From: Alkalicoccus daliensis
Lineage (GTDB): Bacteria > Bacillota > Bacilli > Bacillales > Salisediminibacteriaceae
NCBI RefSeq assembly: GCF_900103955.1
Contig: NZ_FNIL01000007.1
Span: 1-64,000, forward strand
DNA: 64,000 nt
Reading direction: 5' to 3'
Each line of letters begins with the position of its first letter. Position 1 is the stretch's first letter. The notes below the pieces were generated by a model. That model was not told the origin of the DNA. It made no database searches and saw only the letters and a list, made by a program, of their open reading frames with translations. The position numbers were made by a program, and so were the translations under genes. This document shows, piece after piece, positions 24,341-64,000 of the stretch.

Positions 24341-24429
24341 CAAAGCAACCAAATGAAAAAGACGCAAAATACAAAGCTCTCTGATACTATGAATCATGAT
24401 ATACAGGTTTGAAAAAGGAGGAAGATTAT

Positions 24430-24945
24430 TTGAAACAACTATTACTCTTTATTACTTTGGCAATCATAGCAGCAGGCTGCGGTACAAATAATGAGGAAAC
24501 AACCGGTTATGATCCGGAAGATTATTCTATTGAATTAACGAGCACCAGCGGGGAAGAAGTGGAAGTCTTTACTGAAGACAGAGCCGACATATATTTTTAC
24601 TTCACAGGATCCACCTGACAAGTCTGTATCTCTCAGCTAGTTGAGCTGAACGAAGTGCAGGATGAAATTGAAGAATTGGGGTATACGCTCTATGGAATCA
24701 GCCGTGACACACCGGAGAATCATCAAGGCTTAATTGAGCAGCATGATTTAGGGTATGAGCTCTTATCTGATGCGCAGCTGGAAGTTGGTCTCGCTCACGA
24801 TTTTGTTGAAGAGGAAGAACAGATCATTTACCGCGGCTACATCGCAGTGCAGCCGGAGAGCGGGGAAATGACAAGAGAAGTAGATTACCTGGCCGGTGAA
24901 AATAGTGACGAAGTGCTGGAAGTTTTGGAAAATATGAACCCATAA
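24430..24945 (+). CDS. Peroxiredoxin-like lipoprotein with in-frame UGA, probable selenoprotein
   Basis: Read through the TGA at 24616-24618, this frame encodes 171 residues. TTG 24430 follows AAGGAGG with 8-nt spacing. A lipoprotein signal ends in the lipobox 'AAGC' (Cys17). The rest is an AhpC/TSA (peroxiredoxin-like) thioredoxin fold: 'IYFYFTGST-U-QVCISQLVEL', then 'GYTLYGISRDTPENHQGL' and 'YELLSDAQLEVGLAHDF'. The UGA falls exactly where related proteins have the first Cys of a CxxC redox motif, giving UxxC (U63, C66). A hairpin with GU in its loop lies 14-31 nt downstream. Without readthrough both halves would be useless: the first lacks the active site, the second lacks a start. The alternative is a recent Cys-to-stop mutation. 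Selenocysteine machinery is not in the window. Confidence 0.8.
24633..24649 (+). promoter_or_regulatory. Bacterial SECIS-like hairpin
   Basis: TCAGCT (24633-24638) pairs perfectly with AGCTGA (24644-24649) around the loop AGTTG. The loop carries the GU (24640-24641) required for SelB recognition, 21 nt after the UGA, within the 16-37 nt range known for bacterial SECIS elements. It is inside the coding frame, as expected. Confidence 0.72.
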
Positions 24946-24966: not shown

Positions 24967-24998
24967 TGCTGAAGAGAGCTTTCTCTCAGCATTTTTTT
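24967..24998 (+). terminator. Terminator of the selenoprotein-like gene
   Basis: TGCTGA..AGAGA pairs with TCTC..TCAGCA (one bulge) and is followed by seven T. Confidence 0.88.
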
Positions 24999-63992: not shown

Positions 63993-64000
63993 ATGGCTGT
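63993..64000 (+). CDS. Start of a gene cut by the window edge
   Basis: AAAAGGAG precedes ATG 63993 by 12 nt, and only ATGGCTGT is visible. The spacing is slightly long. The product is unknown. Confidence 0.4.

Follow-up and report, generated by a model that had tools for sequence, protein, structure and literature searches.

A lipoprotein-type gene of Alkalicoccus daliensis that probably encodes a peroxiredoxin-fold selenoprotein

The start of contig C11 of Alkalicoccus daliensis raises the question of whether a TGA that lies within an otherwise continuous reading frame ends a gene or is read as an amino acid. The stretch analyzed, referred to here as the window, comprises the first 64,000 nucleotides of this contig, in a genome assembly (G000) of 3.78 Mb in 28 contigs that is 99.98% complete. 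We consider it very probable that the gene encodes a selenoprotein, a lipoprotein of peroxiredoxin fold in which the UGA at positions 24616 to 24618 is read as selenocysteine (Sec). This degree of confidence belongs to the selenoprotein reading alone; the chemistry proposed for the protein is held less firmly.

The reading frame across the UGA and its conservation

The gene frame occupies positions 24430 to 24945 on the plus strand and yields 171 residues when the TGA is read as U, from a TTG start to a TAA at 24943 to 24945. A likely ribosome-binding site, AGGAGG, can be read from the sequence on the same strand at 24416 to 24421, 8 nucleotides ahead of the TTG. The in-frame TGA is codon 63 and lies in the motif STUQVC, i.e., U63-Q-V-C66, with the Cys66 codon at 24625 to 24627. 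The coordinates given in the original prediction for the TTG-started frame, the TGA, and the same-frame stop at 24945 hold, as does its placement of the UGA at the first Cys position of a CxxC-type motif; none of the 45 aligned proteins differed at the U or the C of UxxC. The segment from 24430 to 24480 encodes a putative signal peptide with a lipobox ending at Cys17 (codon 24478 to 24480), and this motif suggests a lipoprotein. Besides Cys17, U63, and C66, the residues T59, Q69, L70, L73, S91, D114, and the pair R135-G136 were invariant in all 45 proteins. The Pfam AhpC-TSA domain (PF00578) scored 56.6 bits in the window protein, well over its cut-off of 26, and none of the NCBIfam models reached its own cut-off with this protein. 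Searched against plasmid records, the protein gave two weak matches and no good one. Beyond the gene, a hairpin resembling a terminator, with a run of T behind it, lies at 24974 to 24987 on the plus strand; one such element was found, against 1.0 expected in shuffled sequences, and a one-gene transcript would fit this weak signal.

A protein search of 120 relatives returned at least 45 matches with one TGA, in 44 genomes; the match in genome G012 shows a TAA besides the TGA, and this TAA is its natural end. All 45 loci of this first set have the UGA in UxxC with an open frame of 104 to 118 codons beyond it. A profile built from these loci was searched against 397 genomes of the order, with the best 8 candidates scored per genome, and gave 81 matches at an E value of 1e-20 or better in 77 genomes, each with one TGA and none stop-free. 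Of the 135 genera of the order that were sampled, 30 have the gene. When 50 further matches were read, 49 had the same UxxC and an intact frame. The remaining one (L175, G722:C1) keeps the UGA, the UxxC, and the hairpin described below but has a frameshift immediately before the UGA, which points either to a sequencing error or to a young pseudogene. The UGA is thus kept in the same motif in all 95 loci read, with the frame intact in 94. The original prediction had named displaced stops, or random extra stops in the downstream half, among close relatives as evidence that would count against it, and neither was seen in these loci, where the frame after the UGA is open in every case. Moreover, in seven pairs the uncorrected pN/pS after the UGA was 0.10 to 0.32 over 106 to 108 codons. 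Such values would not be expected of meaningless sequence behind a true stop; the downstream frame is not a product of chance, and purifying selection acts on it.

The hairpin downstream of the UGA and the selenocysteine machinery

A hairpin of the kind expected of a bacterial SECIS element lies at 24633 to 24649 on the plus strand, starting 14 nucleotides past the UGA. Its 6-bp stem pairs 24633 to 24638 (TCAGCT) with 24644 to 24649 (AGCTGA) around the loop AGTTG (24639 to 24643), with GU at 24640 to 24641, all as originally described. The bacterial SECIS model set out in a 2026 review asks for a loop of 3 to 9 nucleotides, a stem of 4 to 16 bp, a G at loop position 1 or 2, and a UGA-to-loop distance of 16 to 37 nucleotides (PMC13188914); the window hairpin, with 6 bp, the loop AGUUG, and a UGA-to-loop distance of 20 nucleotides, lies within these limits as given there. 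Single-sequence folding of a 51-nucleotide stretch gave -15 kcal/mol (z = -1.46), a value equaled or bettered by 19 of 200 shuffles and thus unexceptional. Because the energy of the hairpin is ordinary on its own, its support was taken from covariation, and the hairpin is convincing only by comparison.

Across the 45 aligned loci (43 distinct), standard pairs filled 98.4% of stem cells, with two-sided changes in 27 cells. The covariation score was 0.283, compared to a shuffled mean of 0.102; none of 500 shuffles reached the observed score, and the best slid version of the stem scored 0.071. This result is to be read with the caveat that related sequences may beat shuffles even without structure. 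Of the five measures of covariation, two did not rise above the shuffles: the number of pairs with two-sided changes was reached by 489 of 500 shuffles, and that of further pair types by 464. In each of the two covarying pairs, a third codon position is matched with the first position of a different codon. At columns 21 and 31, 33 of the 45 loci have G-C, 10 have A-U, and 2 have G-U; the 10 loci changed on both sides are synonymous at each (Gln CAG to CAA and Leu CTG to TTG), and therefore the pairing cannot be explained by the protein sequence. Loop column 25 is G in all 45 loci, the commonest loops being AGUUG (23 of 45) and GGUUC (13 of 45). In the later set of 49 loci, which lay outside the covariation count, columns 18 and 34 were paired in 43 and columns 21 and 31 in all 49. 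The outermost stem pair was absent from 4 of the 43 distinct rows and from 6 of the 49 later loci. When a covariance model of the hairpin was run over the genome, with 150 of 2675 first-look candidates scored, no second good match appeared (next best E value, 2.1). The model did not report the other UGA-containing peroxiredoxin genes considered below; it is specific to this gene and hence unusable for counting selenoproteins.

The genome also encodes the means of decoding UGA as Sec. One tRNA-Sec gene (selC) scored 59.2 bits against the Rfam cut-off of 47, with the anticodon tca according to ARAGORN, and selB (387 bits; cut-off, 242), selD (369; cut-off, 125), and selA (518; cut-off, 268) were likewise above their curated cut-offs. 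The selA, selB, and selD genes and selC lie within about 6 kb, and mnmH is about 8 kb away. The supposition in the original prediction that this genome decodes UGA as Sec is supported by this complement. A lack of selA, selB, or selC had also been named there as counting against the prediction; all three are present. The selD gene (L016:12448-13515, minus strand, G000:C15) itself has a UGA, in AGUGCK, and its listed open reading frame begins only past that UGA; translated by eye with the UGA read through, its start is MENIFQGSKRLTQMTKKAGUGCK, which we take to be the Sec form of SelD.

Presence of the gene follows that of tRNA-Sec across the order. Among the sampled genomes, 178 of 397 had a tRNA-Sec above the Rfam cut-off, including 76 of the 77 gene-bearing genomes and 102 of the other 320 (Fisher P = 2.3e-30, a value that ignores the relatedness of the genomes and overstates their independence). 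The one exception, G065, has the gene and selB (373.7 bits), with no tRNA-Sec score over the cut-off even in a laxer search; selC may be divergent there or may fall in a gap of the assembly. The gene is also present in G034, a genome of the first set that is 76% complete, and neither selB nor tRNA-Sec was over the cut-off there. Conversely, in five sampled genomes of the same family that have no tRNA-Sec above the cut-off (G014, G016, G022, G026, and G030), no selB was over the cut-off and no TGA match of the gene was among the matches listed.

These observations bear on two other ways of reading the UGA. It might be a true stop, so that the locus would be a decayed pseudogene or a pair of short genes, the second starting from the GTG at 24655. 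A mechanical list of open reading frames does give two of them, at 24409 to 24618 and 24655 to 24945, and one relative carries the frameshifted copy L175. That reading is scarcely credible in view of the identical UGA motif and open frame throughout the loci read and the purifying selection downstream of the UGA; in addition, a start at GTG 24655 would remove the UxxC motif and, in the structure model, most of the helix formed by residues 64 to 75. Alternatively, the UGA might be read through as another residue, e.g., Trp or Cys, by suppression and not by the SelB route, and it is true that co-occurrence and a hairpin by themselves do not identify the residue inserted. With a tRNA-Sec of anticodon tca adjoining selB, selD, and selA, a gene whose presence tracks tRNA-Sec, and a covarying hairpin that is suitably spaced and has GU in its loop, we regard suppression as highly improbable. 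We therefore favor decoding as Sec. On this reading, translation would begin at TTG 24430; SelB, guided by the hairpin at 24633 to 24649, would deliver Sec-tRNA(Sec) at UGA 24616 to 24618; and, after Sec insertion, translation would continue to the TAA at 24943.

Predicted fold, active site, and likely chemistry

The structure model of the window protein had a mean pLDDT of 89.9, with a helix that begins directly after Sec63. The best PDB matches to the predicted structure were tied between an integrative model of BCP (Z = 19.8; 2.1 Å over 145 residues) and crystal structures of PrxQ (Z = 19.3; 2.5 Å over 148 residues), and Foldseek agreed with these peroxiredoxin-type matches. A peroxiredoxin fold is thus predicted. 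In peroxiredoxins, whose motif is PxxxT/SxxC, the conserved Arg is catalytic. In two profile alignments to solved peroxiredoxins, Cys66 lines up with the peroxidatic Cys, Sec63 with the Ser of S/TxxC, and Thr59 with the Pro; in the first of the two, Arg135 (codon 24832 to 24834) also lines up with an Arg. The window protein does not have PxxxT/SxxC; it has TxxxUxxC, in which T59 takes the place of the Pro and U63 that of the Ser or Thr, and the Cys and Arg are kept. Because the Sec lies in the Ser/Thr column, away from the peroxidatic Cys, a peroxidase role is not assured.

Relative to PrxQ/BCP and AhpE, the fold is shared at Z scores of 17.5 to 19.8 over 140 to 148 residues, with Cys and Arg aligned, whereas the window protein has TxxxUxxC in place of PxxxT/SxxC and, in addition, a lipoprotein signal; the model for thioredoxin-dependent thiol peroxidase (NF006960) gave 37.6 bits against a cut-off of 140. 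PrxU (PF00578, TxxU) is also of peroxiredoxin fold and likewise carries its Sec at the active-site helix. The difference is that in PrxU the Sec replaces the peroxidatic Cys, as the TxxU entry in Table 1 of PMC13188914 has it, while in the window protein the Sec stands three residues earlier and the peroxidatic Cys is retained. Three residues before the Sec there is Gly60 in the window protein and Thr in some relatives (TTYTU). The PrxU model NF040737 was absent from the NCBIfam families listed for the window protein and was weakly matched by 4 of the 45 members. The SelL-related model (NF040769) and that for TUGYCR-motif redox proteins (NF053656) were also matched weakly, the first reaching 15.7 of the 120 bits required and the second 22.7 of 100. 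The other 44 members matched mostly PrxQ, AhpC, SelL-related, ResA, and similar NCBIfam models. ResA and StoA, which are extracytoplasmic, have in common with the window protein a thioredoxin fold with a CxxC-type motif, and an extracytoplasmic site is likewise probable for the window protein.

We therefore considered the possibility that the selenoprotein acts as a thiol:disulfide oxidoreductase of the ResA/StoA or thioredoxin-like kind on cell-surface or secreted proteins, in which case Sec63 would attack disulfides and Cys66 would resolve. UxxC is a variant of the CxxC-type motif, and some remote paralogues have WCPYC or WCPVC at this site; 12 of the 45 members weakly matched ResA (best E value, 3.9e-7) and 5 matched StoA (best E value, 1.1e-6); the lipobox suggests a location outside the cytoplasm; and a published class defined by the same domain and motif bears the name thiol:disulfide oxidoreductase in Table 1 of PMC13188914. 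However, the 50 VIA-align rows listed were all of peroxiredoxin type by title, Arg135 and Cys66 align with the peroxiredoxin Arg and peroxidatic Cys, and neither ResA nor StoA was matched by the window protein itself at an E value of 0.01. We judge an oxidoreductase role to be a serious possibility whose chances fall somewhat below even.

A peroxide as the substrate has, in our estimation, about an even chance, and we prefer it because of the fold and the retained Cys and Arg, with disulfide exchange a close second. In the mechanism we propose for the selenoprotein, the signal peptide would be processed at the lipobox and the protein tethered by a lipid to the external side of the cytoplasmic membrane. 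Sec63, with which the active-site helix begins, would attack an oxidized substrate there, most likely a peroxide. Cys66, aided by Thr59 and Arg135, would resolve the intermediate by forming a selenenylsulfide, to be reduced again by an extracytoplasmic thiol donor.

Distribution, related genes, and place among selenoproteins

No Cys orthologue of the gene was found in 397 genomes of the order and 398 of the phylum, with the best 8 candidates scored per genome; in the 398 phylum genomes, matches outside G000 and G117 were of only about 60 bits or less. The original prediction proposed aligning homologues to see a Cys where this gene has UGA. None of the 81 orthologous matches has one, and a Cys in that column occurred only in remote peroxiredoxin-like paralogues, in 5 of 18 alignments (L105, L106, L109, L110, and L112), which read WCPYC or WCPVC there. 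Judged by eye, the 18 remote loci are AhpC, PrxQ, AhpE, or peroxiredoxin-like paralogues. The neighborhood of the gene was compared across 20 relatives and the window; no gene family was conserved throughout, the commonest being present in 9 of 21, and there was no conserved operon partner that would name a substrate or reductant. Some neighbors recur, for the most part in the same genus and a few genera close to it; from the look of their sequences, these are presumably UbiD-, YflT-, DJ-1-, and FAH-like proteins.

Within the genome, 10 matches to PF00578 were found, 4 of which have one TGA: the window gene and three more peroxiredoxin-family frames. One of the three is a PrxU/AhpE-like candidate that starts in the window at 63993 to 64000 and continues in L118 (C11 to about 64450), with a UGA at the peroxidatic Cys in IAFTPGUIKELTSW. 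Another, L121 (G000:C3:32999-33400), is a peroxiredoxin-like frame with a UGA in GSWUPAC; the similar locus L112 in G076 reads GSWCPVC, and, by eye, the two are likely a Cys/Sec pair. The fourth UGA-containing AhpC/TSA-family candidate, L125 (G000:C24:11927-12220), is a peroxiredoxin-like frame with a UGA in FVRHLGUPICRNHL. One of the remote loci, a PrxQ-like frame in a distant genome of the phylum (L104, G368:C84), has its UGA where the peroxidatic Cys would be (NTPGU). The four molybdopterin oxidoreductases of the A. daliensis genome are without TGA in the matched part, and thus no Sec formate dehydrogenase was seen.

The original prediction spoke of a probable new selenoprotein. Identification as a selenoprotein stands, and so does novelty at the level of the subfamily, but the kind of protein is not new. 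Among the 119 prokaryotic selenoprotein families or subfamilies of the 2026 review, Table 1 includes a "Prx-like thiol:disulfide oxidoreductase" class with PF00578 and UxxC or UxxU, exemplified by WP_010940744.1 (PMC13188914). The window protein resembles this class in having the AhpC-TSA domain above cut-off and the UxxC motif, and by that rule of domain and motif it falls within the known class, so that "new" applies to the subfamily, the kind itself being already in print. What sets the branch apart from the class, as the table describes it, is its lipoprotein type, with the lipobox Cys in 45 of 45 members, its presence in 30 of the sampled genera of one order, and the lack of a Cys orthologue in the genomes searched. 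A peroxiredoxin-like seleno-lipoprotein of Bacillales was not named in the literature searched, which was largely open access and without supplementary tables. The original prediction described selenoproteins as rarely reported in Bacillaceae. A 2006 survey had already recorded three selenoproteins of three families in Bacillales (PMC1794560), and with tRNA-Sec above the cut-off in 178 of 397 genomes, Sec decoding is common in the order. The aconitase of this genome fits the Bacillales label: among plasmid records, it is nearest to copies from Cytobacillus, Listeria, and Bacillus, at 69 to 71% identity, and the other rows listed are below 58%. A scan of the two shortest contigs for a 16S gene gave no match.

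Together, these results allow a broader proposal, which we advance tentatively and hold to be rather more doubtful than not. The gene may represent a Sec-only branch of peroxiredoxin-fold lipoproteins that extends across this order of Bacillus-like bacteria and has a two-chalcogen site, TxxxUxxC...R, in which Sec occupies the catalytic Ser/Thr column while the peroxidatic Cys and the Arg are retained. It might provide a selenium-dependent peroxide or thiol defense on the outside of the membrane and, with the three other UGA-containing peroxiredoxin genes of this genome, might be a main reason that the Sec machinery is kept in these Gram-positive bacteria; where Sec decoding is absent, the gene would likewise be absent instead of having a Cys form. 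Because the mechanical list of open reading frames splits the gene at the UGA and no NCBIfam cut-off is reached, the gene may be misannotated where it is present. A family for which no Cys orthologue exists would also tend to escape a search strategy that relies on Cys-containing homologues. The occurrence of tRNA-Sec in 178 of 397 genomes, and of this gene in 77, suggests that selenium-dependent redox defense is common in the order. For A. daliensis itself, the gene offers a testable reason for the persistence of the Sec trait in a genome in which no Sec formate dehydrogenase is seen.
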